A stretch of 56,469 nt of DNA, from the NCBI GenBank assembly GCA_021849505.1, contig JAJZSW010000008.1:1-56469 (forward strand). The letters are read 5' to 3'. Source of the DNA: Pseudomonadota bacterium (GTDB lineage Bacteria; Pseudomonadota; Gammaproteobacteria; Burkholderiales; Rhodocyclaceae). Shown here piece by piece: positions 6,721 through 52,860 of the stretch. Numbering within the stretch: the stretch's first letter is position 1; each line of letters starts with the position of its first letter. Position numbers and translations under genes: made by a program. The notes under the pieces were generated by a model, which worked only from the letters and a program-made list of their open reading frames with translations, was not told the origin of the DNA and did no database searches.

Positions 6721-7197
6721 ATGAAAGCCGTGGTGCTGGGCGTCGGCAATGTGATCCTGGCCGACGAAGGGGTGGGTGTGCGTGTCATAGAAGCGCTGGA
6801 GCGCGATTACACGGTACCGGAGGGGGTGACCGTCATCGACGCCGGCACCTCGGGCATGGAAATGCTCGAGGACATGTCCGACCTCGATTTCCTGCTGGTC
6901 GTCGATGCCATTGCCGCCGGCAAGGCGCCGGGCGAACTGGTGCAGCTGCGCGGCGACGCGGTGCCGGTGTTCTTCCGCCGCAACCTCTCGCCGCACGGCA
7001 TCGGCCTTTCGGATGTGCTGGCGTCACTCGAATTTCTCGGCGCCGAGCCGAAGGAAACCGTCATCCTCGGCGTGCAGCCGGCCTCGCTGGAGCTCTCCAC
7101 CGAGCTGACGCCGCTCATTGCCGCGCGCGTGCCGGAACTCGTGGCGCAGGTGGTCGATGAACTGACGCAACGCGGCCTTGCGCCGACGCGCCGCTGA
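6721..7197 (+). CDS. hybD: Hydrogenase maturation endopeptidase
   Basis: This 158-residue protein of the HybD/HyaD/HupD family (peptidase M52) removes the C-terminal tail of HybC after nickel loading. The N-terminus VLGVGNVILADEGVGVR contains the conserved GxGN and acidic nickel-sensing residues. DAGTSGMEMLEDM and VVDAIAAGKAPGE match other conserved blocks. It starts 7 bases after hybC. The stop codon's last base is the first base of a dispersed repeat copy that fills the whole gap to hybE. Confidence 0.93.
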   Translation: MKAVVLGVGNVILADEGVGVRVIEALERDYTVPEGVTVIDAGTSGMEMLEDMSDLDFLLVVDAIAAGKAPGELVQLRGDAVPVFFRRNLSPHGIGLSDVLASLEFLGAEPKETVILGVQPASLELSTELTPLIAARVPELVAQVVDELTQRGLAPTRR

Positions 7198-7221
7198 AAG
7201 TCGGCGCTGGCAGGACGGCAC
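7197..7221 (+). repeat. Dispersed 25-bp repeat, copy 1
   Basis: AAAG followed by a near-perfect core (TCGGCGCTGGCAGGACGGCA, one change from consensus) plus C. It starts in the hybD stop codon and ends exactly at the hybE ATG, so it is the entire spacer. Its G-to-A change creates AGGA, 7-10 bases before the hybE start, the only possible Shine-Dalgarno there. Confidence 0.85.
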
Positions 7222-7686
7222 ATGTTCGCGGAAAACCCCAGCGCGCAGGTCGAGGCGACCTTCCGCCGCATCCAGGCCGAACGCATGGCAGGGCTGCCGC
7301 TGCTCAATCCGGCGCTGGAGGTCGCGGGGCTGGGTTTCGCGCGCCATGAAAACGACTGGCGCGGCGTGCTGGTGACGCCCTGGTGCGTCGACCTGCTGCT
7401 GCTGCCCGCGACGGCCGACTGGCCGGTGCCCGGCCCGCACGAGCGGGTGTTCCGGCAATACGCCGCGGGCAATTTCGCCTTCCTGCCCAACTACGAGGAA
7501 GGGCTCGGCGACTACCTGATCTGCGCGCTGATCCACGACATGAAGCAGTTCCCCGATCAGGAAACCGCGCGCATGACAGCCCAGGCCTGCCTGATCGCGC
7601 TCGATCTCGCGCCCGGCCAGCCGCAGCCCGATGCGGCCGCACCCAGTTCATCCGCCCGCCGCAAATTCCTGTCGCTGGGCAGCTAA
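7222..7686 (+). CDS. hybE: [NiFe]-hydrogenase assembly chaperone HybE
   Basis: This 154-residue cytoplasmic protein belongs to the HybE family, which in E. coli interacts with hydrogenase-2 precursors before Tat export. Diagnostic stretches are MAGLPLLNPALEVAGLGF, GVLVTPWCVDLLLLPA, AAGNFAFLPNYEEGLGDY and FPDQETARMTAQACL. The C-terminus ends in an alanine/proline/serine-rich tail (ARRKFLSLGS). It lies between hybD and hypA, as in E. coli hyb. There is no spacer other than the dispersed repeat copy that ends at its start codon. Confidence 0.9.
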   Translation: MFAENPSAQVEATFRRIQAERMAGLPLLNPALEVAGLGFARHENDWRGVLVTPWCVDLLLLPATADWPVPGPHERVFRQYAAGNFAFLPNYEEGLGDYLICALIHDMKQFPDQETARMTAQACLIALDLAPGQPQPDAAAPSSSARRKFLSLGS

Positions 7687-7695
7687 AATCCAGCC

Positions 7696-8037
7696 ATGCA
7701 TGAAATGTCGCTCGTCGAGGGCGTGCGCGAGCTGATCGAGGACGCCGCGGCGCGCGAAGGCTTTTCCCGCGTGAACAGCGTACGCGTCGAGATCGGCCAG
7801 CTCAGCGGCGTCGAGCGCGAGGCCTTCGAGTTCTGTTTCGACCTGGCGATGCGCGACGGCATCGCCGCTGGCGCGCAGCTCGAAGTGTTGGCCACGCCGG
7901 GGCGCGGGCGCTGCCCGGCCTGCGGCAGGGAAACGGCGCTGGCCGTCGTCTATGATCCATGCGAGCATTGCGGCACGGTCCCGGTCGCCGTGATCGGCGG
8001 CACTGAGATGCGCGTCATCGACCTTGAAGTGGAGTGA
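7696..8037 (+). CDS. hypA: Hydrogenase nickel incorporation protein HypA
   Basis: This 113-residue protein starts [10 protein letters not shown]; His2 is the family nickel ligand. The zinc site is made of CPAC and CEHC near residues 74 and 94. It works with HypB to load nickel into the large-subunit precursor. Length is normal. It follows hybE by 9 bases and nearly abuts hypB, consistent with one operon. Confidence 0.95.
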
Positions 8038-8042
8038 ATGAA

Positions 8043-8843
8043 ATGTGTACGACTTGCGGTTGCGGCGAAGGCGAAACGAAGATCGAGGGCCAGAATATGG
8101 GTGATGGCCTGCAGCATGCCCATGTGCACACGCATGCGGACGGGACGACGCATAGTCATCCCTACACGCCCGCGCACACCCATGCCCGCACCGTCAAACT
8201 CGAACAGGACATCCTGGCCAAGAACAACGCCTACGCCGCGCAGAACCGCGCGCGCTTCGCCGCGCAGGGCATCCTCGCGCTGAACCTCGTTTCCAGTCCC
8301 GGTTCGGGCAAGACGACGCTGCTGGTGAAGACCATCGAGGCGCTCAAGGGGAAGGTCGGCATCGCCGTGATCGAAGGCGACCAGCAGACCAGCCACGATG
8401 CCGAGCGCATCCGCGCCACCGGCGCGCCGGCCGTGCAGATCAACACCGGCAAGGGCTGCCACCTCGACGCGCACATGGTCGGCCATGCGCTGGAACAACT
8501 GCCGCTGGCCAAGGGCGGCGTGCTGATGATCGAGAACGTCGGCAACCTCGTCTGCCCGGCGGCCTTCGACCTCGGCGAGGCAGGCAAGGTGGTGATCCTC
8601 TCGGTGACCGAAGGCGAGGACAAGCCGCTCAAGTATCCGGACATGTTCCGCGCGGCGCGGCTGATGCTCGTCAACAAGTGCGACCTGCTGCCCTACCTGC
8701 AGTTCGATGTGGACCAGGCGATCGCCTACGCGCGCCGCGTCAATCCGCTGATCGAGGTGATCCGCGTTTCGGCGACGACGGGCGAGGGCATGGTCGACTG
8801 GCTGGCCTGGATCGAGAAGGGTGCTGCAGCCGTTCGTGGCTGA
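8043..8843 (+). CDS. hypB: Hydrogenase nickel incorporation GTPase HypB
   Basis: This is a 266-residue GTPase. The N-terminus MCTTCGCG is the high-affinity nickel motif, and residues 20-50 are histidine-rich (HAHVHTH and further His residues), suggesting nickel storage. The P-loop is [11 protein letters not shown], with later blocks [16 protein letters not shown] and NKCDLLPY. The ATG at 8043 is preferred to an upstream in-frame GTG at 8034 because HypB proteins begin MCxxCGC. The 3' end overlaps the predicted hypF start. Confidence 0.94.
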
Positions 8844-11079
8844 TGCCATCCGCATCAGGGTAACGGGCGTCGTCCAGGGCGTCGGCTTCCGGCCCTTCGT
8901 CTGGCGGCTCGCGCACGAACTCGAATTAGCAGGCTGGGTAAAAAATGACGCGGCCGGCGTCGAGATCCATGCGGAAGGCGCAGCCGCAGCATTGAATGAA
9001 CTCGAGCGGCGCGTCCGCGACGAAGCGCCGCCGCTGGCACGCGTCGATTCCGTATGGGTGCGACCGGTCGCGTACGAAGCCACTGCCGGGTTCGCGATCA
9101 TCGCAAGCTCGGGCGGCAGGGTCAGCACGGCGATCGGCCACGACACCGCGCCCTGCGCGGCCTGCCGCGCGGAACTGTTCGATCCGGCCAATCGCCGTTA
9201 TCGACATCCCTTCATCACCTGCACGCATTGCGGGCCGCGCTACACGGTGACGCGGCGCCTGCCCTACGACCGGCCGCAGACCAGCCTCGCACCCTTTCCG
9301 TTCTGCCCGGACTGCCAGCGCGAATACACCGACCCGGCCGACCGGCGCTTCCATGCCGAGACGACCTGTTGCCCGAACTGTGGCCCCCGCTTGTCCTTGC
9401 GCGATGCCGCCGGCCAACCAATTGAAGGCGATCCGATCGCGCAGACGCTGGCGTTGTTGAAGGCCGGCAGGATCGTCGCGATCAAGGGGCTGGGCGGTTT
9501 CCACCTCGCCTGCGATGCGCGCAAGGCCGCGACGGTTGCATGCCTGCGCGAGCGCAAGCAGCGCGAGGAAAAACCCTTCGCGGTCATGCTGGGTGCCGTC
9601 TCGCCGGCACTGACTTTCGCGCAATTGACGGGCGATGATGTCGCGCTGCTGGAAAGCCCCGAGCGCCCCATCGTGCTGCTGCCGAAACTGCCGGCGACGG
9701 ATGCCTTGCTGCCCGGCTGCGCGCCCGGCCTGCCCGAAATCGGCCTGATGCTTCCGGCGACGCCGATCCAGTATCTGCTTTTCCATGACGCGCCGGACAT
9801 GGTGCTGGTGATGACCAGCGCCAATCCACACGGCGAGCCGCTGGTGATCGGCAACGCGGAGGCGCTGCAGCGGTTGGCCGGCATCGCCGATGCCTTCCTG
9901 CTGCACGACCGTGACATCGTTGTGCGTTGCGACGACAGCGTGCGGCGAGGGACAGGATTCGTTCGCCGGGCGCGGGGTTATGTCCCCCGCAAGATCAGTC
10001 TGCCCCGGGCTGTGCCGCCGGTGATTGCAGTCGGCGGCTGGTTCAAGAACACGATCTGCGTCACGCGCGGCGACGAGGCCTTTGTTTCGCAGCACATCGG
10101 CGATCTCGACAATGCCGCCGCCTGCGGCTTCTTCGAGGAGAGCGTCGCCCACCTGCTGCACATCCTCGATGTCGAACCAGCGATCGTCGTGCACGACCTG
10201 CACCCGGACTTCCATTCGACGCGCTTCGCCGCGGCCTTCGCGGCGGAACGCGCCATCCCCGGGCTCGGCGTGCAGCATCACCATGCGCACATCGCCGCGG
10301 TGTGCGCCGAGCATGGCGTGAGGGAGCCGGTGCTCGGCGTGGCACTCGATGGCGTGGGACTCGGTTCTGATGGCACGGCATGGGGTGGCGAACTGCTGCG
10401 TGTCGAGGGCGCGCGTTTTGAACGACTGGGGCATCTGCGCCCGCTGGCGCTGCCCGGGGGCGATATCGCGGCGCGCGAGCCCTGGCGCATGGCGGCGGCG
10501 GCCCTGCACTTGCTCGGACGTGGCGACGAAATCGCGCGGCGTTTCGCCGATGAACCGGCCGCGCCGATGCTGGCAACCATGCTGGAGCGGGGCATCAACA
10601 GTCCGTTCACTTCAAGTGCCGGCCGGCTGTTCGACGCGGCAGCGGGCCTGCTCGGCGTGCGGCGGCGCGCCAGCTTCGAGGGACAGGCGGCGATGCTGCT
10701 CGAAGGGCTGGCGGTCCGGCACGGGGCGATTGGGGCGTGTCCCGACGGCTGGCGCATTCGGGACCAAATCCTCGATCTGCTGCCCATGCTGGCACATCTC
10801 GAGGACTGCGAGGATGCCGCTGCGGGCGCCGCCTGGTTCCATGCGACGCTGGCCGCGGCGCTGGTCGACTGGCTTGCCGAAGCCGCCGGGCGGACGGGCA
10901 TCCGCCGGGTGGCTGCTGCGGGCGGCTGCCTGCTCAATCGTCTGCTGTCCGCCGCATTGCGTGCCGGGCTGGCGGCGCGCGGCCTCGAACTGCTGGAAGC
11001 GCGGGCATTGCCGCCCAACGATGGCGGCCTGGCGCTCGGTCAGGCGTGGGTGGCGGTTAATTCGGCGGCAGGAGCCTGA
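8821..11079 (+). CDS. hypF: Carbamoyltransferase HypF (cyanide ligand synthesis)
   Basis: This 752-residue protein makes the carbamoyl group that becomes the cyanide ligands of the NiFe site. Domains in order: acylphosphatase-like ([14 protein letters not shown], residues 5-95), two zinc-finger units ([30 protein letters not shown], about 110-200), a YrdC-like domain (from about 215), and the Kae1-like carbamoyltransferase with HHHAH near residue 486. The start is a GTG at 8821 inside hypB; GTG at 8836 is an alternative. The last 23 bases overlap the convergent GGDEF-EAL gene. Confidence 0.95.
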
Positions 11080-13516: not shown

Positions 13517-14904
13517 GCGGCGAATTCGATTTCGCGGGCGTTGCGCGCGCGCTCGAAGAAGTAGCAGATGCGCTGGCGCGGCGACAGGTAGTCGAACGCG
13601 GCCTTCGGCAGCTGCAGCGGCTTCAGGCTGCGGCGGATGCCAAGTTCCCCGGCTTGCTCGAGATCCTCGACCGGCGCTTCGTCGCGCGGTACGCTCGGCT
13701 CGTGGATTACGACGTTCGGTTTGAGCGGCCGCGCCGCGTTGACCGAAACCACCAGCGCCAGACGGCCGTCGGACAGCTCGACCACCGAGCCGGGCGGATA
13801 GACCCCCATCATGCGGATGAAGGGCATCAGGACCTTGTTGTCGAACTGCTGCCGCATCTGCGCGAAGATCAGCGCCAGTGCCTCGTGGGGCGTGATGGCC
13901 TGGGCCGGATTGCCCGGATTGCAGAGGTTGTCGTAAAGGTTCACCAGCGCAACGATGCGCGCCAGCGGCGCGATCTGCTCGCCGCTCAATTGGCTGGGGT
14001 AACCGTGCCCGTCCGCGAGTTCGTGGTGCTGGGCGATGATGGCCAGCTCCTCGGGCCTGAGCTTCATGCGTTTGCCGATGGCGACGCCATGGGCGACATG
14101 CTCCTGGTAGAGCCGACGTTCCGCTGAGGTATACCGGCTGTCCATCCATCGCAGTTGTTCCGGCAGCATGGTCAGGCCGATGTCGTGGAGCAGGGCGCCG
14201 CTGCCGAGGATGTCCAGCTGGGCGGTATCCAGTCCGAGGGTCTTGCCGAGCAGAAGCGAGATCACGGTCACATTGACCGAATGTTGCGAGGCGCGCTCGC
14301 CGATGCTTTCCGACAGCAGGCGGATCGCCGTCTCTTCCTGCGCCAGCATCTTGCCGACCATGTCGCCGACCAGCTCTGCCACCTGCGTGCGGGCGGTTTC
14401 CGGCTGGTTGCCGATCTGCTCGATGACCTGGCGATAGGCGCGCGAGGCGGTGGTAAATTCGCGCTCGCAGAGTTCGAGGCTCTCGCGCTGGGCGTGGAGC
14501 TTGTCGCGGCGCTGACGCCGCTCTTCGGCCAGCGCGGCGGCCTCTGCCGCGACAGCTGCCGCGATCGCCTGCCGCGCAGCCGCGGCGGCTTCGACGCTTC
14601 CTCCGGCAGCGGACTGCCCGGTTGTCGTGGCTGGGGCTGCCGTCCCGTCAGCACCGACTTCTCCGTCCGCCTGCCCGGCCGCGGGTGGCGGCTCGCTTCC
14701 CGGCTCGGGATCGCTCTTTTCCGGCGACCAGCGGATGCGTTTCACCCCCAGCTTGATCAGCGTGTCGATCTGGTCGCGCGAACTGATCTTGAAGCTGTTG
14801 AGCGCAAACGGATGCTTGATCCAGCCCAAATCGACATAGACGTACGTGCCGATGTGCACATCGTCGATATCGATGAATTGGGCTTCGCTGTCCTGGGTGG
14901 CCAT
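13513..14904 (-). CDS. HD-GYP phosphodiesterase with N-terminal DUF3391-like domain
   Basis: This 463-residue protein has three parts. Residues 1-70 (FIDIDDVHIGTYVYVDLGWI) resemble DUF3391. A 70-180 linker is rich in Ala, Gly, Pro and Glu with coiled-coil character. An HD-GYP domain follows with LLHDIGL, HVAHGVAIGKRM, QHHELADGHGYP and VALVNLYDNL. HD-GYP enzymes hydrolyse cyclic-di-GMP. The linker contains EVGADGTAA, encoded by a degenerate copy of the dispersed repeat. It is the first gene of a pair with the GGDEF-EAL gene. No Shine-Dalgarno is obvious, and an inverted repeat lies 13 bases before the start. Confidence 0.9.
   Translation of the reverse strand: MATQDSEAQFIDIDDVHIGTYVYVDLGWIKHPFALNSFKISSRDQIDTLIKLGVKRIRWSPEKSDPEPGSEPPPAAGQADGEVGADGTAAPATTTGQSAAGGSVEAAAAARQAIAAAVAAEAAALAEERRQRRDKLHAQRESLELCEREFTTASRAYRQVIEQIGNQPETARTQVAELVGDMVGKMLAQEETAIRLLSESIGERASQHSVNVTVISLLLGKTLGLDTAQLDILGSGALLHDIGLTMLPEQLRWMDSRYTSAERRLYQEHVAHGVAIGKRMKLRPEELAIIAQHHELADGHGYPSQLSGEQIAPLARIVALVNLYDNLCNPGNPAQAITPHEALALIFAQMRQQFDNKVLMPFIRMMGVYPPGSVVELSDGRLALVVSVNAARPLKPNVVIHEPSVPRDEAPVEDLEQAGELGIRRSLKPLQLPKAAFDYLSPRQRICYFFERARNAREIEFAA
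14637..14661 (-). repeat. Dispersed 25-bp repeat, degenerate copy 2
   Basis: Four mismatches to consensus over 25 positions, inside the variable linker of the HD-GYP gene, where it encodes EVGADGTAA. It could be an old copy or a coincidence of composition. Confidence 0.45.
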
Positions 14905-15810: not shown

Positions 15811-16197
15811 TCAGCTGCAGCCCCCCGACGTACCGGTGCTACCACCACCACAGCCGCCGCAGCCGCTGCTGCGGCTTGCGCAACCGCCGCCCTGGGGTGG
15901 ATCGTTCGGATTGTTGAAGATGAACTGGAATTCCCCGGGGTGCAGTTCGACGAAATCGAGCGTCGCGCCGGCCAGCAGTTCCTGGCTGCGCGGCGAGATC
16001 AGCAGGGTGACCCCGCAGGATTCGATCACCGCGTCTTGCTCGCGTTCCTCGTCGAAGCCCATGCCATAGACGATTTCGCCGTCCTCCACCTTGGCCGCGA
16101 CGCGCAGGCTGGTGAGACCGGGTGGTTCAGCGTCTTCCTGTTGCGCGGCGGCGGCACGCAGGATTTGTTCGGCGGCGGAGGGGGTCAGGTTGAACAT
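15811..16197 (-). CDS. dsrR: DsrR, A-type Fe-S carrier-like protein
   Basis: This 128-residue protein has an IscA-like fold region (residues 1-100: [48 protein letters not shown] and FIFNNPNDP). The tail is rich in glycine and cysteine (SGCGGCGGG and SGGCS). The DsrR known from Allochromatium vinosum is IscA-like without the three cluster cysteines and affects dsr gene expression. Here the cysteines are concentrated in the unusual tail. It overlaps the end of dsrN by 13 bases and directly precedes the SUMT gene. Confidence 0.85.
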
Positions 16198-17597
16198 GAT
16201 GTGGTCTCTCGGGTCAGGGTGGAACAGTTTCTCGCGAACTGGATGAAACGGGCCGGCCAGTTGCAGCCGGCCGTGCTGCGTAGATGGGTGTAGGACGCCA
16301 GCAGGTTGTGGCGCAGGATGCCGTCGTGCCGGCCATCGATGCCATGGCCGCGCTTGACCGTGTAGGCGTAGCGCGTATCCGCCGGCAAGCCGCGAATCTC
16401 GGAATAGTGGAACTCGTGGGCGTGCAGGGGGTGGCAAAAGTCGGCGCTGGCGGGGCGGCACCAGGGGTGATCCTGCGTCGGCTCGATGACGACATAGCCG
16501 CGGCCGACAGGTTTCTCGTGCATCAGGATGTCCCCCGGGATGACCCCGACCATCGGACGGGCCTTGCCATGCCAGGCGATCGACTGTGCCAGATACATCA
16601 GGCCGCCGCACTCGGCGTAGGTCGGCAGCCCGTTCTCGATCGCGCTGCGGATATCGCTGCGCAGACTCGTATTGGCGGCAAGATCGTCGAGGAAGGATTC
16701 GGGAAAGCCGCCGCCGATGAAGAGCGCATCGCAGGGCGGCAGCCGGGAATCCTTGAGGGTGTCGAAGGGGACCAGCTTGGCGCCGGCGGCGGCGAGCGCT
16801 TCGAGGTCGTCGGTGTAGTAAAAGCCGAAGGCGGCATCGCGGGCAATCGCCACACGCAGGCCGGGCTGGACAGGCGCGACCCCGGCCGGCGGGGCGGCGA
16901 GCGGAACGTTCGTCGCGGTGATGGCGAGCAGGCGCTCAAGGTCGACCTGGCGGGCGACGCGTTCAGCAATGGCGGCGATGGTCTGCTCCGCGTGGGCGGC
17001 CTCGTTGGCGGGCATCAGGCCGAGATGGCGCTCCACGACGGCAAGCCGGGCATCTTCATGCACGGCGCCCAGCACCGGCACATCGGTGTAGTGCTCGACG
17101 ACGGCGCGCAGCTTGGCCTCGTGGCGGCTGCCGCCAAGGCGGTTGAGAATCACGCCGGCGATGCGGATGTCCGGTTCGAAGGCCTGATAACCGAGGATCA
17201 GCGGCGCGATGCCGCGCGTCTGGCCGCGCGTGTCGAGCACGAGGATCACCGGCAGGTCAAGCAGGCGGGCAAGGGCGGCGTTGCTGTTGCTGCCGTCGAG
17301 CGCCAGACCGTCATAAAGCCCCTTGTTGCCTTCGACGAGGCAGACGTCGGCGTTATGACCATGGGCGAATTGCGCCTTGATCTCGTCGTGCGGAGAAAGG
17401 AAGAAATCGAGGTTGCGGCAGCCGCGTCCGGCGGCGCGACCCAGCCAGAGCGGGTCGATGTAGTCGGGCCCCTTCTTGAAGGGTTGCACCGTCAGGCCGC
17501 GCGCGCGCAGGGCGGCCGCGAGGCCGATGCTGAGCGTGGTCTTGCCCGAGGATTTGTGCGCGGCGGAGATCAGGAAACGATGCATGGAGCGCTGCAT
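16185..17597 (-). CDS. dsrN: DsrN, cobyrinate a,c-diamide synthase-like sirohaem amidase
   Basis: This 470-residue CobB/CbiA-family glutamine-dependent amidotransferase has a P-loop ATPase half (SAAHKSSGKTTLSIGLA, KKGPDYIDPLW, VEGNKGLYDG) and a glutaminase half with AECGGLMYLA (nucleophile Cys) and HAHEFHYS. In dsr loci it is proposed to amidate sirohaem to the siroamide used by DsrAB. Near residue 393 the segment WCRPASADFC is encoded by a dispersed repeat copy read antisense, just before the conserved HEFHYS block. ATG at 17597 is used; ATG at 17585 is equally possible, and neither has a clear ribosome binding site. Confidence 0.9.
   Translation of the reverse strand: MQRSMHRFLISAAHKSSGKTTLSIGLAAALRARGLTVQPFKKGPDYIDPLWLGRAAGRGCRNLDFFLSPHDEIKAQFAHGHNADVCLVEGNKGLYDGLALDGSNSNAALARLLDLPVILVLDTRGQTRGIAPLILGYQAFEPDIRIAGVILNRLGGSRHEAKLRAVVEHYTDVPVLGAVHEDARLAVVERHLGLMPANEAAHAEQTIAAIAERVARQVDLERLLAITATNVPLAAPPAGVAPVQPGLRVAIARDAAFGFYYTDDLEALAAAGAKLVPFDTLKDSRLPPCDALFIGGGFPESFLDDLAANTSLRSDIRSAIENGLPTYAECGGLMYLAQSIAWHGKARPMVGVIPGDILMHEKPVGRGYVVIEPTQDHPWCRPASADFCHPLHAHEFHYSEIRGLPADTRYAYTVKRGHGIDGRHDGILRHNLLASYTHLRSTAGCNWPARFIQFARNCSTLTRETTSCST
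16437..16461 (+). repeat. Dispersed 25-bp repeat, copy 3 (inside dsrN)
   Basis: AAAG plus core with a single A-to-G change (GGGGCGGCAC at its 3' end). It lies antisense within dsrN, in frame, encoding CRPASADF in a loop region of the glutaminase half. Confidence 0.8.
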
Positions 17598-24366: not shown

Positions 24367-24391
24367 AAACTCGGCGCTGGCGGGACGGCAA
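24367..24391 (+). repeat. Dispersed 25-bp repeat, copy 4 (dsrC-dsrM spacer)
   Basis: AAAC followed by an exact core TCGGCGCTGGCGGGACGGCA, then A. It lies 30 bases beyond the dsrC stop, antisense to the dsr genes, in the largest gap inside the dsrC-dsrR part of the operon. The rest of the gap (24275-24421) shows no gene. Confidence 0.85.
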
Positions 24392-29879: not shown

Positions 29880-29904
29880 AAAGTCGGCTCTGGCGGGACG
29901 GCAC
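29880..29904 (+). repeat. Dispersed 25-bp repeat, copy 5
   Basis: AAAG plus core with one change (TCGGCTCTGGCGGGACGGCA) plus C, starting 6 bases after the DsrC-like stop and ending 6 bases before the next gene's ATG. No ribosome binding site is seen apart from this element. Confidence 0.85.
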
Positions 29905-33221: not shown

Positions 33222-34639
33222 CCGAGCATGTCGAGTTCGGCCTGGGCCTGTGCGATTTGCAGGTCAAGACGCTGCGCCATTTCTCCCAGCAGATCGCGAC
33301 CCTGCCGTTCGGCCATGCGCGCGGCGGTAAACAGTTCGTAGAGTTTCGATCCGTAGAGCCGGTCGAGTTCGGCCGTGATGGCGGCAATGCGTTGCCTGAC
33401 TGCCGCGAGTTGTGCCGCGAGTGCCTGCAGGCTGGCAGAACCCGGCGCTGGCGGGACGGCACCAACCGGCATTTCGTGCTGTCCTTCAAGCCAGAGGCTC
33501 AGCACTTCTTCAAGTGCGGCGACATCGCCGGCGCGATAGGCACGATTGGCCTCGCTCATCAGCTGGGTGCGCCAGGCGCGGTCGACTTCGTCGCTGGCAC
33601 GGTCGGGGTGGATTTTTTGCGCGAGCTGGCGGAAGCGCTTTTTCAGGTCGTCGCCCGGGGCAAAGCGGGCCGTTTCATTCTGTGCTTCACGTGCTTCATA
33701 GGCATTGTGCTCGCGCCGCGACTGCTCGGCGCGGGACTGGGCGTTTTGTGCAGCCTCATGCAAGGCGGCATCTTCGGGCTGGCGCTCCATCCGCGCCTGG
33801 GCAAGGTCAGCGTGGATACGGTCAATTTCCGTCATGCGTCCGGCGATCAACTCGTGATAGCGTGTGGTGAATATGGCGAGCTCGCCTTGGGCGGTGGCCA
33901 GTTCAAGTTCCAGTTCCGCCAGCTCCTGGCCGAGCACATCGAGCTCGGCACGCAGGCGAAGGGTCTCGTCGGAGGGTGCCAGCGTCGTTCCGCTGCTAGC
34001 TACGCCGACTGACAGCAGCACAGTGTGGCGGGCACCGGGCCAGGCCGTGCACAGCGAAGCGGGCAACGGTCCGGATTGAACCAGCATCACCCAGTCGGTC
34101 GGCACGGGATGGCGTTGCGCGATCGGCCACGGACCAATGCGCACCGGGAACAGGTCAAGGATGCCGGTCGGAGGTGCTTCGCGTTCGAGGCCGCGCGTCG
34201 TCCACGCAAGGCTGGCGCGCCAGAGCGCATCGTCCAGTTGCAGACGCGAACGCATGGCAACCCAGGCCGCGCCGTCGCTGTCCGCGGCGGCGCGGGTCAG
34301 CCGGCTTTTCAGCAGCGCGAGCGTGGCACGCAAAGCGATGTGGCTCGCATGGTCCGCGCCCGGCAGAACCAGGCATAGCGGGCGCAGCCGCAGGTCGAGG
34401 GCATTGGAAATCTCGGGCAGCAGGCTGTCGTCGGCGGTGACGATCCAGAGCGTGCGCTCGCGCACCAGGGCCGCGGCGGCTAGCGCCGCCAGCGCGCCGA
34501 CGGCGACGGACGGATCCGCAAGCGGCACGGCGACATCGAAAGTCAGCCCTGGCGCGGCGGCACCCGCAGGCGCGCGCGCTCCGTCGAAGTGTCGCAGCCA
34601 GTCGGCGAGGGTCGCGGCGATGTCGGGGGCGCAGTCCAT
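33218..34639 (-). CDS. J-domain protein with flanking coiled coils
   Basis: This 473-residue protein begins MDCAPDIAATLADWLRHF. Residues 1-210 are an unrecognised domain. Residues 225-325 are rich in Glu, Ala and Arg and look coiled-coil. A J-domain lies at about 327-375 with helix II KKRFRQLAQK and the HPDR loop that stimulates DnaK. A second helical region follows to the C-terminus. A proline-rich linker, AVPPAPGS near residue 393, is encoded by a dispersed repeat copy. No dnaK or grpE is nearby. The client is unknown. Confidence 0.75.
   Translation of the reverse strand: MDCAPDIAATLADWLRHFDGARAPAGAAAPGLTFDVAVPLADPSVAVGALAALAAAALVRERTLWIVTADDSLLPEISNALDLRLRPLCLVLPGADHASHIALRATLALLKSRLTRAAADSDGAAWVAMRSRLQLDDALWRASLAWTTRGLEREAPPTGILDLFPVRIGPWPIAQRHPVPTDWVMLVQSGPLPASLCTAWPGARHTVLLSVGVASSGTTLAPSDETLRLRAELDVLGQELAELELELATAQGELAIFTTRYHELIAGRMTEIDRIHADLAQARMERQPEDAALHEAAQNAQSRAEQSRREHNAYEAREAQNETARFAPGDDLKKRFRQLAQKIHPDRASDEVDRAWRTQLMSEANRAYRAGDVAALEEVLSLWLEGQHEMPVGAVPPAPGSASLQALAAQLAAVRQRIAAITAELDRLYGSKLYELFTAARMAERQGRDLLGEMAQRLDLQIAQAQAELDMLG
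33438..33462 (+). repeat. Dispersed 25-bp repeat, copy 6 (inside the J-domain gene)
   Basis: GAAC then CCGGCGCTGGCGGGACGGCA and C; three mismatches, all in the first five bases. It is antisense to the gene, in frame, and encodes GAVPPAPG in the linker after the J-domain. Confidence 0.75.
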
Positions 34640-34702
34640 GCGGCATTCTAGTCGGCGGTTCGTAGTAAAGTGCGCGCTGTGACTTGATCTGGAGGGTGGA
34701 GC

Positions 34703-35308
34703 GTGTTTTCGATCATTCAGGCCGCAGGATGGCCGATCTGGTTTCTGCTGGCGACATCCGTGATTGCCGTCGCGTTGATCATCGAGCGCAGCGCCACATT
34801 GCGGCGTGCCAAGATCGTGCCGGCCGGCCTGCTGCAGAGCACGGTCGCGGAATTTCGCCGTGGCGGCGCAAGCGCTGACCTGCTGAAACGGCTCGATGCG
34901 CATTCGCCGCTCGGCAAGGTGTTCGCCGCCGGCCTGCGCAATGTCACCAGTTCCCGCGAGGTGATGAAGGAAGCCATCGAGGAGGCCGGACGCGGGGTGG
35001 CGCACGAACTCGAGCGTTTCCTGACCAGTCTCGGCACCATCGCCTCGATGAGCCCGTTGATGGGCCTGTTCGGCACCATCGTCGGCATGATCGAAATATT
35101 CGGCTCGGGGACCGGCGCCGGCCACAACCCGCAGCAGCTCGCCCATGGCATTTCCATCGCGCTTTACAACACCGGCTTCGGACTGCTGATCGCCATCCCG
35201 GCGATGATCTTCTATCGTCATTTCCGTGCCTTCGTCGATAGCTGTGTGATCGAGATGGAGCAGCAGGCGCTCAAGCTCGTCGAACAGGTACATGGGGAAC
35301 GCCAGTGA
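34703..35308 (+). CDS. exbB: ExbB/TolQ-family proton channel subunit
   Basis: This 201-residue membrane protein has three helices: residues 8-27 near the N-terminus, and two in the MotA/TolQ/ExbB core (LGTIASMSPLMGLFGTIVGMI and ISIALYNTGFGLLIAIPAMI). It starts with GTG after GGAGGGTGGAG. It overlaps exbD by 4 bases. The pair powers outer-membrane processes through TonB or TolA and is commonly placed upstream of lpxK in betaproteobacteria. Confidence 0.9.
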   Translation: MFSIIQAAGWPIWFLLATSVIAVALIIERSATLRRAKIVPAGLLQSTVAEFRRGGASADLLKRLDAHSPLGKVFAAGLRNVTSSREVMKEAIEEAGRGVAHELERFLTSLGTIASMSPLMGLFGTIVGMIEIFGSGTGAGHNPQQLAHGISIALYNTGFGLLIAIPAMIFYRHFRAFVDSCVIEMEQQALKLVEQVHGERQ

Positions 35309-35718: not shown

Positions 35719-36718
35719 GGCCCTGACCAGGGTCTGGCGCGGGCGCGGCCCGCTCGTCTGGCTGCTGCTTCCATTCGGAGTGCTGTTTTTCGCGATCGCT
35801 GCGCTGCGGCGGCTCGCCTACCGCCTTGGCCTGTTCAAGTCGGAGCGGCTTCCCGTGCCGGTCGTGGTCGTCGGCAACATCATCGCCGGCGGCGCAGGCA
35901 AGACGCCGCTGACGCTGTGGCTGGCGCAGCGCCTGGTCGCGGCGGGCCGCAAGCCGGGGATCGTCAGCCGCGGCTATGGACGCGACAGCGATGACATTCG
36001 CAAAGTCGGCGCCGGCGCGACGGCACTCGATGTGGGCGACGAGCCGCTGCTGCTTGCCCGCCGCTCCGGCTGTCCTGTCTATGTCGGGTCCGACCGTGCC
36101 GCGGCGGCGCGTGCGCTGCTGGCCGCGCATCCGGACTGCGACCTGATCCTTTGCGACGATGGTTTGCAGCATTACCGATTGCAGCACGATGTCGAAATCG
36201 CCGTCATCGACCGGCGCGGGATGATGAACGGCTGGCCCTTGCCCGCCGGACCGCTGCGCGAACCGGCGAGCCGTTTGGAACATGTAGATGCCCTGGTGCT
36301 CAACGATACGCTGCATGCGCCGCTGAGCAGCGTGCCGACCTTCGCGATGCGACTGGCCGGGCAACGGTTCTATCGCCTCGACGATCCGCGCATCACATGC
36401 GCGGCAAGGGATCTGGCCGGACAAACCTTGCATGCAGTGGCCGGCATCGGCGAGCCGCAACGCTTTTTCGACCATCTCGCGACTCTGGGTTTGAAAGCGG
36501 AACACCATGCCTTTCCAGACCATCATCGCTATCTCGCCGCGGACCTGAAATTTGCCGGCAATGCGCTCCTGATGACGGAAAAGGACGCGTTAAAATGCGC
36601 CGGCCTTTGCGCATTGCCGATCTGGGTCTTGCCGGTCGATGCCGTCGTCGAACCCGATCTTGCCCGCCACGTTCTGGACATTCTGGAGAAGAACACCAAT
36701 GGACCCGCGCCTGCTTGA
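35693..36718 (+). CDS. lpxK: Tetraacyldisaccharide 4'-kinase
   Basis: This 341-residue lipid A pathway kinase has an N-terminal membrane helix ([21 protein letters not shown]), a P-loop variant [40 protein letters not shown] and [13 protein letters not shown]. The start is uncertain: a TTG at 35693 inside exbD is the only usual start codon before the helix. The segment KVGAGATAL before DVGDEP is encoded by a dispersed repeat copy at a point where family members vary. It overlaps the downstream Trm112-like gene. Confidence 0.9.
36002..36026 (+). repeat. Dispersed 25-bp repeat, copy 7 (inside lpxK)
   Basis: AAAG plus core with two changes (TCGGCGCCGGCGCGACGGCA) plus C, in sense and in frame, encoding KVGAGATA. 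The peptide is low-complexity, so convergence is possible, but 23 of 25 bases match. Confidence 0.65.
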
Positions 36719-39786: not shown

Positions 39787-41883
39787 ATGTCTGAAGGTCT
39801 GATATTTGCACTGGTCTGTGCCGTTGGCGCTATTGCCTACGGTCTAATTTCTACCCAGTGGATTCTAGGGCTGGCAACCGGCAACGACCGTATGCGGGAA
39901 ATTTCCGCGGCGGTTCAAGAAGGTGCGCAAGCCTATCTGAAGCGCCAATACACCACCATCAGCATGGTGGGTGTGGCGCTGGCGGTGGTGATCTGGATTT
40001 TTCTGGGTACCGCCACGGCTGTCGGCTTCATCCTGGGCGCAGTACTCTCGGGCCTGGCTGGCTTCATCGGCATGAACGTTTCCGTGCGTGCCAACGTGCG
40101 CACCGCCGAAGCGGCAAAGGGCGGCATCAACACCGCGCTTAACGTCGCCTTCCGTGGTGGTGCCATCACCGGCATGCTGGTGGTTGGCCTCGGACTTCTG
40201 GGTGTGGCCGGTTTCTACGCCTATCTCAAAGCGACCACTGCGGCCGACGTCCCGATGGCCACGCTCCTGCATCCGCTGATCGGCCTCGGTTTCGGTTCAT
40301 CGCTGATCTCCATCTTCGCCCGTCTTGGCGGCGGCATCTTCACCAAGGGTGCCGACGTTGGCGCCGACCTGGTGGGCAAGGTCGAAGCCGGCATTCCGGA
40401 AGACGACCCGCGCAACCCGGCCGTGATCGCCGACAACGTCGGCGACAACGTCGGTGACTGCGCCGGCATGGCCGCCGACCTGTTCGAGACCTACGCCGTG
40501 ACCATCGTCGCGACCATGCTGATCGGTGCTCTGGTGCTCACGGGCTTCGAACAGCAGGCCGTGATCTATCCGCTGGTGCTGGGTGGCTTCGCGATCATCG
40601 CGTCGATCATCGGTGCGATGTTCGTCAAGCACACGCCAGGCCAGAAGATCATGACTGCGCTCTACAAGGGCCTGATCGTCGCCGGCATCCTGGCGCTGGT
40701 CGCCTTCTACCCGATCACCACCTACTTCCTCCCTGACAACATTCTCGATAACGTCTTGGGCATCAGCGGTGGCAGCCATATGCGTCTGTATGGCGCGGCA
40801 GTGATTGGTCTGGTGCTGACCGGTTTGATGGTCGTGATCACCGAGTACTACACGGCAACCGAGTACGCCCCGGTGCGGCACATCGCCCAAGCTTCGACCA
40901 CCGGCCACGGCACCAACGTGATCGCCGGCATCGGCGTCTCGATGCGCGCTACGGCACTGCCCGTGCTGGCGGTCTGCGCCGCCATCTGGGCGTCTTACCT
41001 GCTCGGCGGTCTCTATGGCATTGCCATCGCCGCGACTTCCATGCTGTCGATGGCCGGCATCATCGTCGCGCTTGACGCTTACGGCCCGATCACCGACAAC
41101 GCTGGCGGCATTGCTGAAATGGCCGAACTGCCGAAGGAAATCCGTGACGTGACCGACCCGCTCGACGCCGTGGGCAACACCACCAAGGCGGTGACCAAGG
41201 GTTATGCAATCGGTTCCGCCGGCCTGGCCGCGCTGGTGCTGTTTGCCGACTTCACCCACGCGCTCGAAGCCTTCAAGCCGGGTGTCAAGTTCCTGTTCGA
41301 CCTGTCCGATCCGGCCGTCATCATCGGCCTGTTCGTCGGCGGCATGGTGCCTTATCTGTTTGCCGCCATGGGCATGGAGGCCGTCGGTCGCGCCGCCGGT
41401 TCCATCGTCGTCGAAGTGCGTAGGCAGTTCCGCGAGATCAAGGGCATCATGGAAGGCAAGGCCAAGCCGGAATACGGCACCTGTGTCGACATGCTGACCA
41501 AGGCCGCGATCAAGGAAATGATGATCCCCTCGCTGTTGCCCGTCCTCGTCCCGGTTATTGTCGCCGTGAGCATGAACTTCCTCATGCCCGACGTGAACGG
41601 CGTCGGTGCGGGTGTGCGTGCGCTCGGCGGCGTGCTGATGGGTACCATCGTGACCGGCATCTTCGTCGCGATCTCCATGACCACCGGCGGTGGCGCATGG
41701 GACAACGCCAAGAAGTACATTGAAGAAGGCAATTTTGGTGGCAAGGGCTCCGACGCGCACAAGGCTGCGGTGACTGGCGACACCGTTGGCGATCCCTACA
41801 AGGATACGGCCGGCCCCGCGGTTAACCCGCTGATCAAGATCATCAACATTGTGGCACTGCTGATCGTGCCGCTGGTTGCATAA
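39787..41883 (+). CDS. hppA: Membrane-bound proton-translocating pyrophosphatase
   Basis: This 698-residue protein has about 16 helices. Catalytic loops: [20 protein letters not shown] and [18 protein letters not shown]. The segment [20 protein letters not shown] has Lys at the position that marks potassium-independent proton-pumping enzymes (Ala there marks K-dependent ones). It would store energy of PPi hydrolysis as a proton gradient or make PPi from it. Confidence 0.95.
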
Positions 41884-41947: not shown

Positions 41948-41972
41948 AAACTCGGCGCTGGCGGGACGGCAC
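41948..41972 (+). repeat. Dispersed 25-bp repeat, copy 8
   Basis: AAAC plus an exact core plus C. It sits between the hppA terminator and murJ; its last base is the final base of the murJ stop codon on the other strand. Confidence 0.85.
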
Positions 41973-43510
41973 TATGCCGTGCCTTGACGCCGGAAATCGC
42001 GCAGACGAAAGCCCAGAGCCCAGAGTGTGGCGAAATAGGCAGCAGCACCCGCGATTACCAGCGCGGATAGATGGGCCACGCGCGTCCAGGCCGGCGCAAT
42101 CAGCCAGTCCGCTTCCTTGCCCATGCCGAACCAGAGCGTTGCGGCAAGTACCATGAGCGCGATGGCGATTCTCAGGCCAAATTTAGTCCAGCCCGGTTGC
42201 GGCACATAGACGGCACGCTGGCGCAGGCCGCGGAACAGCAGCGCGGCATTCAGGCATGCCGCGAGTCCGATCGACAAGGCCAAGCCAGCATGCTTGAGCG
42301 GCACGATGAAGGCGAGGTTCATCGCCTGCGTCGCCAGCAGCGTGATCAAGGCGATCTTCACCGGCGTCCTGATGTTTTGCTGCGCGTAGAAGCCCGGGGC
42401 GAGCACCTTGACGAGGATCATGCCGATCAGGCCGATGCTGTAGGCTACTAGCGCCTCGCGCGTCAGCAGCACATCATTGGCAGTGAAAGCACCGTGCTGG
42501 AACAGCGTGGAAAGCAAGGGGACGCCGAGCATGGCGAGGCCGAGGGCGGCCGGCAGGGTCAGCAGGATAGTGAGCCGCAGACCCCAGTCGAGCAGTGCCG
42601 AGAATTCCTGCGGCTGGCTGCTGCTGTGGGCGCGCGCGAGGCTGGGCAGCAGGATCGTGCCGAGCGCGGCGCCAAGGAGGCCGGCGGGGAACTCCATCAG
42701 CCGGTCGGCGTAATAGAGCCAGGAGACGCTGCCGGACGTCAGGAACGACGCGAAAATGGTGTTGATCAGCAGGGAGATCTGCGCGACCGAGACACCCAGC
42801 ACGGCGGGCGCCATCAGTTTCATCACGCGGCGCACGCCGGGGTCGCCGGGGGCGAAATCGAAGCGGGGCAGCATGCCGATCCGCTGCAGCGCCGGCAGCT
42901 GAATCGCGAGTTGCAGCAGGCCGCCGAGGAACACTGCCCAGGCCAGCACCATGACAGGCGGATCGAAATACGGCGCGGCGAACAGCGCCATGCCGATGAA
43001 GGAGAGGTTGAGCAGTGTCGGCGTGAACGCGGGCAGGGCGAAGCGGCTCCAGGTGTTGAGAATGCCCGCCGCCAGCGCGACCAGCGCCATGAACAGGATG
43101 TAGGGGAAGGTGATGCGCGTGAGTGCGACCGTCAGCGCGAACTTTTCGGCATCCGCGGCGAAGCCGGGCGCGGAGATGTAAATCAGCGCCGGGGCGCCGA
43201 TGACGCCGAGCGCGGCGACGCCCAGAACGACGAGGAACAGCAGTGTGGCGACACGATCGACCAGTGCCTTGGTCTCGGCCTCGCCACGCCGGTTGCGGTA
43301 TTCCGCCAGCAGCGGCACGAAAGCCTGCGAGAAGGCACCCTCGGCGAACATGCGCCGCAGCAGGTTGGGCAGGCGGAAGGCGACGAAGAAGGCATCGGTG
43401 AGCATGCCGGCGCCGAAGGCCCGGGCGATGACAAAATCGCGGACGAAACCGAGGATGCGTGACAGCAGCGTCAGGCTGCTGACGGTGGCCAGGGTGCGCA
43501 GCAGGTTCAT
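41972..43510 (-). CDS. murJ: Lipid II flippase MurJ
   Basis: This 512-residue MviN/MOP-family protein has about 14 membrane helices and flips the peptidoglycan precursor lipid II. The N-terminus [22 protein letters not shown] and the segment [20 protein letters not shown] are family hallmarks. The ATG at 43510 is chosen by that N-terminus. It is divergent from rpsT, the common betaproteobacterial arrangement. Confidence 0.95.
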
Positions 43511-43580
43511 GATGAGTGAAGCAGGTTCATGGGAGCGGATGTTAGCCTTGCACCTGCTTTTCCAAGCGCGGAAAAGCACC

Positions 43581-48063: not shown

Positions 48064-48558
48064 ATGCCCTCCTTCGACATCACCTCCGAAACCGACTTCG
48101 TCGCGCTGAAGAATGCCGTCGACGTGGCGGGGCGCCACATCGGCAACCGCTACGATTTCAAGGGCACGAGCGCCAAGGCCGAGCTCAACGAGAAGGACAA
48201 GCTCATCACGATCTGGGGCGATTCCGAGTTCCAACTCGGCCAGGTGAAGGACATCCTGTTTCCGGAATTGGAGAAGAAGGAGCGCGAGAGCACCAAGCGC
48301 CTCGATGTCGGCACGGTCCAGGTGGTCTCGGGCAACAAGGCCAAGCAGGAACTCAAGATCAAGACCGGCATCGAGCAGGAACTGGCGAAGAAGATCGTCA
48401 AGCTGGTCAAGGACAGCAAGCTCAAGGTGCAGGCGACGATCCAGGGCGACGCGGTGCGCGTCACCGGCGCCAAGCGCGATGTACTGCAGGAAGCCATCGC
48501 GCTGGTGAAGAAATCGGTGACGGATTACCCGCTGACCTACGGTAACTTCCGCGACTGA
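48064..48558 (+). CDS. yajQ: YajQ-family nucleotide-binding protein
   Basis: This 164-residue protein has two ferredoxin-like lobes: MPSFDITSETDFVALKNAVD, RYDFKGTSAKAELNEKD, RLDVGTVQVVSGNKAKQELK and a C-terminal KSVTDYPLTYGNFRD. The Xanthomonas homologue binds cyclic-di-GMP, making it a possible effector for the GGDEF/HD-GYP module in this window. A dispersed repeat copy starts 3 bases after its stop. Confidence 0.94.
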   Translation: MPSFDITSETDFVALKNAVDVAGRHIGNRYDFKGTSAKAELNEKDKLITIWGDSEFQLGQVKDILFPELEKKERESTKRLDVGTVQVVSGNKAKQELKIKTGIEQELAKKIVKLVKDSKLKVQATIQGDAVRVTGAKRDVLQEAIALVKKSVTDYPLTYGNFRD

Positions 48559-48561: not shown

Positions 48562-48586
48562 AAAGTCGGCGCTGGCGGAACGGCAC
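48562..48586 (+). repeat. Dispersed 25-bp repeat, copy 9
   Basis: AAAG plus core with one change (TCGGCGCTGGCGGAACGGCA) plus C, filling most of the gap between two convergent stop codons (yajQ at 48558 and the amidotransferase at 48591). Confidence 0.85.
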
Positions 48587-48590
48587 CTTC

Positions 48591-49938: not shown

Positions 49939-49940
49939 GG

Positions 49941-50540
49941 ATGGCCCTGTCAGAATCGCTCACCGCCGACTGGCTGCGCCAGCGTTTTCCGCTGGCATGG
50001 CCATCTGTGGTCGTGAGCGAGGCGCCGCTGCAGCTGCGCGAACCGGTCGCGGCCGCCGTGCTGGTGCCGATCGTCGTGCGCCAGAGCGGCTTGACGGTGT
50101 TGCTCACCCAGCGGACCGCCCACCTGCGCGATCATGCCGGGCAGATCAGCTTCCCCGGCGGGCGGTGCGAGGCCGGGGATGACTCGCCGATCGCCACCGC
50201 CTTGCGTGAAAGCAGCGAGGAGGTCGGCATCGAACCGCAACAGGTCGAGGTCCTCGGCACCTTGCCGGACTATTTCACCGGCACCGGCTTTTGCGTGACG
50301 CCGGTGGTGGGGCTGGTACTCCCGCCGCTGAATCTGCGCCTCGACGATTTCGAGGTGGCCGACGTCTTCGAAGCGCCGCTGGAATTCCTGCTGGACGGCG
50401 CCAATTACCGGCGCGAGTCGCTGGAGATCGCCGGCCAGATGCGCACCTACTGGGCGGTGCCATGGCAGGAGTATTTCATCTGGGGGGCGACCGCCGGCAT
50501 GCTGGTGTGCCTGCGCGAATCCCTGCTCGGCACGGGGTAA
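49941..50540 (+). CDS. Nudix hydrolase, coenzyme A pyrophosphatase-like
   Basis: This 199-residue protein has the Nudix box GGRCEAGDDSPIATALRE followed by SSEEVGIE and the CoA-type segment LLTQRTAHLRDHAGQISFPG just before it. The ATG at 49941 is chosen over a TTG two codons earlier. It likely cleaves CoA or related dinucleotides. Cytoplasmic. Confidence 0.88.
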   Translation: MALSESLTADWLRQRFPLAWPSVVVSEAPLQLREPVAAAVLVPIVVRQSGLTVLLTQRTAHLRDHAGQISFPGGRCEAGDDSPIATALRESSEEVGIEPQQVEVLGTLPDYFTGTGFCVTPVVGLVLPPLNLRLDDFEVADVFEAPLEFLLDGANYRRESLEIAGQMRTYWAVPWQEYFIWGATAGMLVCLRESLLGTG

Positions 50541-50607
50541 GTCGGCGGCAAGGGGAGTGTGATATCTTCGGAAGGTCGCTGCGCGGCAGCGAAACCTGCC
50601 CTCGTCC

Positions 50608-51543: not shown

Positions 51544-51589
51544 TCCTGTAACCATCCCCAAACCATTTAATAATATCCAGGAGTGGAAC

Positions 51590-52774
51590 ATGTCCAACAA
51601 GGAAGTCGTAGTACTGAGTGCGGTGCGCTCGGCCGTGGGTGCCTTCGGCGGTTCGCTGAGCACGCTTGAACCCGCCGAACTCGGCGGGCTGGTGGTCAAG
51701 GAAGCCATTGCGCGCGCCGGCGTCGATCCCAAGCAGGTCACCTTTGCCACGGTCGGCAACTGCATCCCGACCGAAGTGCGTTATCCCTACGTCGCGCGCG
51801 TGGCGACCATCCAGGGCGGCATGTCGATGGACTCCACCGCCTTCGCTGTAAACCGCCTCTGCGGCTCCGCCCAGCAGGCGATCGTCAACGTGGCACAGGC
51901 CATCATGCTGGGCGATGCCGATTTCGGCATCGGCGGCGGCGTCGAAGTGATGTCGCGCGGCGCCTACCTGTTGCCGGCACTGCGTTCCGGCGCGCGCATG
52001 GGCGACACGCAGGCCATCGACGCGATGGTCGCCGTGCTGACCGACCCGTTCGGCGTCGGCCACATGGGCGTGACCGCGGAAAACCTCGCCGCCAAGCACG
52101 GCATTACGCGCGAGGAGCAGGATGCCTTCGCCGTCGAGTCGCAGGCGCGCGCCGCCAAGGCCATCGCCGAGGGCCGCTTCAAGTCGCAGATCGTGCCGAT
52201 CACGCTCAAGACCCGCAAGGGCGATGTCGTGTTCGACACCGATGAGCATCCGAAGGCCGGTACGACGATGGAAACCCTCGCGAAAATGCGGCCGGCCTTC
52301 AAGAAGGACGGAACGGTGACGGCCGGCAACGCCTCGGGCATCAACGACGCCGCCGCCTTCCTCGTACTCGCCGATGCCGCCAAGGCGGCCGCCGGCGGCC
52401 ACCAGCCGATCGCGCGTCTGGTCTCCTACGCCATTGCCGGCGTGCCGAACGACGTGATGGGCGAGGGACCGATTCCCTCGTCGAAGGTCGCGCTGCAGAA
52501 GGCCGGTCTGACCCTCGACAAGATGGACGTCATCGAGTCGAACGAGGCCTTTGCGGTGCAGTCGATCACGGTCGCCAAGGGCCTCGGCCTCGATCCCGCC
52601 AAAACCAACGTCAACGGCGGCGCGATCGCGCTCGGTCACCCGGTCGGGGCGACCGGCTCCGTGATCGTCACCAAACTGCTGCACGAAATGATCCGCGTCA
52701 ATGCCAGGTACGGCATGGCGACGATGTGCATCGGCGGCGGTCAGGGCATCACGACGATCTGGGAAAGGATGTAG
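51590..52774 (+). CDS. Acetyl-CoA C-acetyltransferase (thiolase)
   Basis: This 394-residue enzyme has all thiolase residues: the acyl-accepting Cys in VNRLCGSAQQA (about Cys90), NEAFAVQ, the GHPVGATG histidine and the CIGGGQG cysteine. It could work in beta-oxidation, polyhydroxybutyrate synthesis or aromatic degradation; no neighbour decides this. A CAGGAG site precedes the ATG, and a strong bidirectional terminator follows. Confidence 0.93.
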   Translation: MSNKEVVVLSAVRSAVGAFGGSLSTLEPAELGGLVVKEAIARAGVDPKQVTFATVGNCIPTEVRYPYVARVATIQGGMSMDSTAFAVNRLCGSAQQAIVNVAQAIMLGDADFGIGGGVEVMSRGAYLLPALRSGARMGDTQAIDAMVAVLTDPFGVGHMGVTAENLAAKHGITREEQDAFAVESQARAAKAIAEGRFKSQIVPITLKTRKGDVVFDTDEHPKAGTTMETLAKMRPAFKKDGTVTAGNASGINDAAAFLVLADAAKAAAGGHQPIARLVSYAIAGVPNDVMGEGPIPSSKVALQKAGLTLDKMDVIESNEAFAVQSITVAKGLGLDPAKTNVNGGAIALGHPVGATGSVIVTKLLHEMIRVNARYGMATMCIGGGQGITTIWERM

Positions 52775-52791
52775 ACACGCCGCGGTACAGA

Positions 52792-52835
52792 GACGAAGGG
52801 CCACCCGGACAAATTGGGCGGCCCTTCGTCATTTT
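52792..52835. terminator. Bidirectional terminator between convergent genes
   Basis: GACGAAGGGCC and GGCCCTTCGTC form a perfect 11-bp stem around a 17-base loop, with ATTTTG after it. It separates the thiolase gene from the convergent monooxygenase-like gene. Confidence 0.75.
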
Positions 52836-52860
52836 GTGCCGTCCTGCCAGAGCCGACTTT
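52836..52860 (-). repeat. Dispersed 25-bp repeat, copy 10
   Basis: On the - strand: AAAG plus core with two changes (TCGGCTCTGGCAGGACGGCA) plus C. Its first base is the last base of the stop codon at 52860-52862. It is the only well-conserved copy oriented this way. Confidence 0.82.

Follow-up and report, generated by a model that had tools for sequence, protein, structure and literature searches.

The closest described systems to the repeat reported here are the DNA uptake sequence (DUS) of the Neisseriaceae, which is read by the minor pilin ComP, and the uptake signal sequence (USS) of the Pasteurellaceae. The introduction of a 2025 paper names only two families as having uptake tags (PMC12616744). 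We analyzed a 56,469-nucleotide stretch of DNA from a Rhodocyclaceae bacterium (contig JAJZSW010000008.1 of assembly GCA_021849505.1), referred to as the window, in which an earlier note had described a dispersed repeat. That observation is real. The repeat is a 24-mer, AAAGTCGGCGCTGGCGGGACGGCA, referred to as the tag, and it is quite likely to serve as a DNA uptake sequence, marking DNA as self in the way of the DUS of Neisseria and the USS of Haemophilus, in a third bacterial family. A wider proposal is also likely, though we hold it a little less firmly. Rhodocyclaceae-type Betaproteobacteria (relatives of Sulfuritalea, at least five further genera, and at least two further dialect groups) would possess a third, separately evolved uptake-sequence family, with a 24-bp AAAGTC-N12-ACGGCR frame, a genus-specific middle, and a putative minor-pilin reader, that keeps transformation within lineages of environmental bacteria that have been little studied.

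The tag resembles the DUS in copy number (hundreds to thousands, with both strands represented), its permissive core-genome sites, its genus-level dialects, its occurrence in Betaproteobacteria, and the presence of a ComP-family pilin in the host. Comparable core-genome, permissive-site, and dialect behavior is described for the DUS in two papers (PMC2397512, PMC3630211). Unlike the DUS of about 10–13 bp, the tag is a bipartite 24-mer without the GTCTGAA context. The DUS ATGCCGTCTGAA and the reverse complement of the tag share TGCCGTC, a 7-base word, one of three tried, whose length is reached by 2.1% of letter shuffles; with the DUS 10–12-mer GCCGTCTGAA and its CTG core, the tag has TGCCGTC in common only. 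The USS, whose hosts are Gammaproteobacteria, shares with the tag a long discontinuous motif, copies on both strands, dialects, and intragenic copies, according to PMC12616744 and PMC2346458. In contrast to the USS, which has a 9-mer core and AT-rich downstream blocks, the tag carries no AT-rich blocks in its flanks, and the longest run it has in common with the extended Hin-USS is 5 bases (30% of shuffles do as well) and with the extended Apl-USS 4 bases (83%). Of the general traits of uptake sequences, those found are abundance on both strands, mostly in-place origin in coding sequence, permissive core-genome sites with an intergenic excess, phylogenetically coherent dialects, and type IV pilus plus ComEC genes in the host. 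By sequence, the tag belongs to neither the DUS nor the USS, though it appears to work like them. A search of the open-licence literature found no paper tying uptake sequences or natural transformation to Rhodocyclaceae or Sulfuritalea.

The genome that contains the window, here called the own genome, is 2.75 Mb in 161 contigs, of which the window is contig C146 (G000 is a draft assembly). It has 504 copies of the 24-mer compared to 0 for the reversed control, and the core matches 294 times forward and 257 times in reverse, where the reversed pattern has 1 and 0 matches. The dispersed repeat described earlier is thus genuine, and its abundance is far above chance. The commonest 12-mers in the stretches sampled from the own genome and from the complete congener G017 are tag words. 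The earlier note had also reported that eight of nine good copies face the same way and had raised the idea of a chromosome-orientation motif, and its interpretation is only partly supported; a chromosome-orientation motif is not. The uniform orientation is true within the window but not genome-wide, where the strands carry 269 and 235 copies. The contig strand labels of the own genome are arbitrary. Because the strands are about equal genome-wide, the bias is a property of the window contig and not of the genome. G017 shows no orientation contrast. Its 61 exact copies (26 + and 35 −) have positions compatible with a uniform distribution (Kolmogorov–Smirnov p 0.21), neighbors agree in orientation in 30 of 60 cases, and the best two-arc split was matched by 63 of 200 shuffles; the splits tried gave each arc between one third and two thirds of the copies, and origin and terminus were not mapped. 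Neighbors in the stretches sampled from three genomes, the own genome and its congeners G002 and G017, share an orientation in 154 of 270 pairs (p 0.024), with 55 of 91 in the own genome; the total is partly doubled because G002 and G017 share sites. Any local same-orientation tendency among neighbors is weak at most. Among the 12-mers of G002, tag words are outranked by a separate array at G002:C1:175072-179173 (L193), in which 59 exact copies of ATCAGGGCATGTTTCCTAC are spaced at 65–73 nt; it has the look of a CRISPR array, and the word has zero copies in the G017 or own stretches.

A logo was built from copies with ≤6 mismatches, 109 from 456 kb of own-genome sequence and 91 from 400 kb of G002 sequence. 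It is bipartite, AAAGTCGGCGCT ... ACGGCA; its edges are sharp, delimiting 24 bases, and its flanks are almost flat. The repeat had been described as about 25 bp and mostly followed by C; the repeat is genuine, but the unit is 24 bp and the trailing C is weak (53% in the own stretches). Firm blocks, AAA(G)TCGGCGCT and ACGGCA, flank a softer center. Positions 16 and 17 are the most variable, positions 4 and 18 also vary, more so in G002, and the same soft positions are found in the two species. Each copy (≤5 mismatches) holds about 36 bits of information, a figure inflated by the selection threshold. This position-specific variation looks like protein recognition and not like the uniform decay of inserted copies.

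Among the congeners, 17 of 18 genomes have 122–661 copies, and G006 has zero. A survey of the family, tallied by hand from the table, finds at least 100 copies in 28 of 249 genomes, from six genera (g1, g2, g9, g62, g70, and g88), and at most 37 in the rest. Elsewhere in the order, 28 of 291 genomes have any match, and none has more than 5. Among the matches listed, named contigs that carry the 24-mer exactly come mostly from Rhodocyclaceae metagenome-assembled genomes (MAGs), Sulfuritalea, and Sulfurisoma; the few remaining ones include Azonexus, Casimicrobiaceae, and gammaproteobacterial MAGs. Of the named contigs fetched, Sulfuritalea sp. CROMO_A_203 is the closest (89.3% over 7.9 kb). The frame AAAGTC-N12-ACGGC is largely retained between genera, and the middle varies by genus. 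The G028 dialect, AAAGTCAGTCCY... in the form AAAGTCAGTCCYGGCGGGACGGCG, has 253 copies in G028 and 211, 157, 152, 135, 93, and 2 copies in six searched congeners, with 0 copies of its reversed control in 17 of 17 genomes searched. The G026 dialect has the ending ...ACGGCG (...GGCG) with C or T at position 9, and 33 copies were found in 155 kb. In G086 the dialect is AAAGTCGACGCTGG, with 14 AAAGTCGACG sites in 74 kb; its 9-mer AAAGTCGAC is observed 14 times where 0.58 are expected. The dialect differences track genus, as judged with no tree built. DUS dialects likewise change in concert across hundreds of sites (PMC3630211). No tag-like over-represented 12-mer was found in samples of G033 (100 kb), G036 (80 kb), G006 (381 kb), and G019 (46 kb); a short sample can miss the tag, because G019 is tag-rich by whole-genome count. 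A different repeat, resembling repetitive extragenic palindromic (REP) elements and centered on CTGTGGGAGCTTGCTGTGGGAGC, is over-represented in G023 (L320-L324). Two otherwise tag-poor genomes have local clusters: G123:C1:1461265-1502266 holds 5 of that genome's 7 good copies, and G097:C104:13081-19610 holds 6 of the 16 in that draft genome. These clusters may be imported tracts or, for draft G097, contamination.

The placement of copies relative to genes was determined in the sampled stretches. Genes were called with a simple custom script and not a standard program, mismatch thresholds (3, 5, or 6) were mostly our choice, and G002 and G017 have many sites in common, so counts across genomes are not independent. 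At ≤5 mismatches, the own copies divide into 62 coding, 8 edge, and 30 intergenic, where fully intergenic positions make up 10.5%. The corresponding counts are 52, 4, and 25 in G002 (11.6%) and 60, 6, and 34 in G017 (13.5%), an intergenic enrichment of 2.5- to 2.9-fold. Raw densities per kb are 0.265 and 0.234 inside DNA conserved between G002 and G017 compared to 0.200 and 0.120 outside it. Both orientations are about equally frequent within genes (30 sense and 32 antisense in the own genome). Two of the six frames are rarely used, sense phase 1 with 4 and antisense phase 1 with 8 of 174 copies in the three non-independent genomes, and the most used coding frame yields the bland peptide KVGAGGTA. 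Protein coding alone does not account for the sites.

The length of the host proteins bears on how coding copies arose. By our criteria, 35 of 312 coding copies could be aligned at the protein level to 381 kb of tag-free G006, some of them representing one gene seen in several genomes. There was no net length change at 23 sites, 8 were longer by 1–6 residues, and 4 were shorter by 7–9 residues. An inserted 24-mer would add 8 codons, and an insertion of 7–9 residues was found at 0 of 35 coding sites. By this length comparison with G006, a transposed element is not supported as the source of coding copies, but two called coding sites in other alignments have block gaps (see below). In the same alignments, gap-free windows make up 63% at tag sites compared to 93% elsewhere, and local identity is 33% compared to 62%. 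Coding copies therefore occupy tolerant, indel-prone places. The window copy in lpxK at 36002 gives KVGAGxTA or a variant across the genus, where G006 has AVSDQTTA; of the 17 genomes with full coverage of this site, 15, including the own genome and G006, have it at constant length, and G005 and G013 have longer versions. From these alignments, the coding copies appear mostly to have arisen in place.

An uptake sequence explains these results best because of the mostly in-place coding origin, the presence on both strands, the tolerant sites, the even spacing, and the genus-wide change. The type IV pilus uptake machinery would recognize the tag, probably via a minor pilin, and tagged DNA of close kin would be favored over foreign DNA for import and recombination. 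New copies would originate by mutation or short recombination tracts, and they would spread because tagged fragments are imported more often. Candidate machinery is present. The ComEC family PF03772 is found in 55 of 61 genomes, including the own genome (contig C145), which also has 13 type IV pilin-motif matches. A pilin-like gene cluster on own contig C7 encodes a 132-residue protein matching PF16732 ComP_DUS (42 bits, cut-off 27.3), a family present in 53 of 61 genomes, the own included.

Several observations weigh against an uptake sequence. The tag, at 24 bp, exceeds the DUS or USS core in length. Unlike the Neisseriaceae DUS, for which inverted pairs are reported to be common, the own stretches have no inverted pairs; no two good copies lie <100 bp apart there. 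Weak opposite-strand partners within 70 bp accompany 3 of 100 own copies, 7 of 81 in G002, and 9 of 100 in G017, where chance gives about 8%. Copies are conserved between G002 and G017 (0.86–0.90) no better than their flanks (0.87). The ComEC and ComP_DUS families also occur in tag-free relatives, including G006, and so they indicate ability and not specificity. A gene tracking the tag was not found by presence or absence of PF16732 and ComEC in the 61 genomes; neither, considered as a guide to the receptor, follows the tag. The remaining points concern lengths. At 29880 in the window, the tag lies between the same two genes, in constant orientation, in 13 of 18 aligned genomes of the genus (own included). 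The spacers are otherwise mostly dissimilar despite the constant tag, and the five tag-free ones are 3, 3, 12, 24, and 164 nt. At 41948, the tag (≤6 mismatches) is present in 9 of 12 aligned spacers, whose mean length is 147 nt, and missing from 3, whose mean is 102 nt; seven further genomes with a broken match are outside this comparison. Tag-bearing and tag-free spacers differ by about 35–45 nt at both sites examined, the tag-free 164-nt spacer being the one exception. Fifteen tag-lacking targets were aligned (13 between G002 and G017 and 2 in the own genome), and 8 have gaps of 24–45 nt. Such gaps occur at 6 of the 8 intergenic targets and at 2 of the 7 that lie in called genes. The gaps at these two coding targets are 24 and 32 nt, and the one of exactly 24 nt is of a hairpin version of the tag.

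By these gaps and spacer lengths, copies can be gained or lost blockwise, mainly outside genes, and the mechanism may be insertion, deletion, or recombination tracts. Many recent neisserial DUS also arise via recombination and not point mutation, according to PMC2397512. Several of the eight gapped targets involve the head-to-head hairpin version of the tag. Six such hairpins occur in 400 kb of G017, for example at G017:C1 209050-209170 (L265), one in G002, and none in the own stretches; one G017 occurrence is a tandem pair. Orthologous G002 and G017 gaps have a one-sided tag in only 1 of 99 cases, which leaves no power for a length test. At the nucleotide level, the own stretches have only two sites alignable to G002 or G017, because the sampled stretches barely overlap.

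The spacing of copies bears on a second explanation, in which the tag is the site of a chromosome-organizing or recombination protein and is under selection at hundreds of loci, comparable to Chi, FtsK-orienting polar sequences (KOPS), matS, or nucleoid-protein sites. Tags are spaced about 4 kb apart and more evenly than random (coefficient of variation 0.66–0.79), with 11, 7, and 11 gaps <1 kb where 19.2, 15.4, and 22.5 are expected in the own genome, G002, and G017 (own p 0.03). This even, genome-wide distribution and the bipartite logo with its constant spacing would suit a protein site, and the dialects could mirror a co-evolving binder. Chi and KOPS are likewise short sequences found hundreds of times, within genes and between them; the tag is much longer, and no orientation bias was found. 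The complete genome lacks regional bias as well, and each copy of the selected set holds about 36 bits, far more than marking 500 sites would require. Housekeeping genes tolerate altered peptides to host the tag, and congener G006 does without it. A site of this kind is unlikely.

We also doubt, somewhat more strongly, that the tag is a miniature mobile element inserting its own copies, similar to Rickettsia palindromic elements (RPE), REP elements, or miniature inverted-repeat transposable elements. RPE and REP elements are short dispersed repeats, some within genes. The sharp 24-bp edges, the gaps at 8 of 15 tag-lacking targets with 2 in called genes, the spacer lengths at the two window sites, and the paired hairpin version in G017 fit an element that inserts. 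The tag itself is not palindromic, and the earlier view that it is not a usual REP or a terminator is upheld. In genes the tag mostly replaces sequence and does not lengthen it, as the absence of an 8-codon insertion from all 35 coding sites and the constant length of the lpxK site in 15 of 17 genomes indicate. The flat flanks mean that there is no common terminal or target sequence, and decay is unequal by position.

Copies favor the ends of genes. Tags in convergent gaps number 10 in the own genome where 3.2 are expected (p 0.0009), 11 in G002 (5.8 expected), and 14 in G017 (6.3 expected). Among copies with an upstream stop, that stop lies within 30 nt for 26 of 35 in the own genome, 13 of 23 in G002, and 17 of 35 in G017. 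A 3′-end RNA or DNA element (part of a terminator, an mRNA stability element, or an anti-read-through signal) could account for this placement and for the copy at 41948 behind a terminator-like hairpin, where 9 of 12 aligned spacers have the copy, but it is very improbable given that 62 of 100 own copies lie within genes in both orientations, that the motif is not palindromic, and that no known RNA family is found in the window at the Rfam gathering score.

If the tag is an uptake sequence, it would be a third case, in environmental bacteria, and such tags would have evolved again. Several dialects in one family together with a tag-free congener would offer material for comparison in the search for the receptor, and genome data could reveal DNA-exchange partners. 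Protein segments such as KVGAGGTA, recurrent in these genomes, would reflect the DNA tag and not protein function.

The window contains 12 matches to the core TCGGCGCTGGCGGGACGGCA at ≤3 mismatches, where shuffles give 0.02. The 24-mer (AAAG plus core) has 14 copies at ≤4 mismatches, 11 on the + strand and 3 on the − strand, and none with 5–7 mismatches was found in the window. All ten sites in the earlier list were recovered, the − strand 24-mers starting at 52837 and 14638 in place of 52836 and 14637, which included one extra base. Two copies reported as exact have the exact 20-base core at 24371 and 41952. Both are AAAC variants on the + strand. The copy at 24367–24390 is intergenic, and that at 41948–41971 lies between the convergent pyrophosphatase (39787–41883) and murJ (41972–43579) genes and is preceded by the terminator-like hairpin and a T run. 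Four + strand copies have 1 mismatch. The copy at 7197–7220 shares the final base of the gene at 6706–7197, 16437–16460 is antisense within the cobB-like gene at 16185–17597, 29880–29903 lies in a 37-nt spacer between two genes, and 48562–48585 starts 3 nt past the gene at 48064–48558. Two mismatches are found in the + strand copy at 36002–36025, which is in frame in lpxK and encodes KVGAGATA, and in the − strand copy at 52837–52860, at the 3′ end of the − strand gene 52860–53387. The degenerate − strand copy at 14638–14661 (3 mismatches) falls in a weakly supported open reading frame (ORF) without a Pfam match. The − strand ORF at 33218–35293 encodes 691 residues, matches no Pfam or NCBIfam family at the thresholds applied, and hosts two + strand copies in antisense, at 33438–33461 (3 mismatches) and 34539–34562 (4 mismatches). 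The latter is one of four weak copies (1281, 2875, 9594, and 34539) beyond the earlier list. The others are at 1281–1304 (+, 3 mismatches) within the hypD-like gene 427–1536, at 2875–2898 (+, 4 mismatches) within the 4Fe-4S protein gene 2758–3840, and at 9594–9617 (−, 4 mismatches), antisense within the hypF-like gene 8821–11079. The weak copies at 9594–9617 and 34539–34562 start with AAAGTCAG and resemble the G028 dialect, as foreign-dialect imports or drift would.

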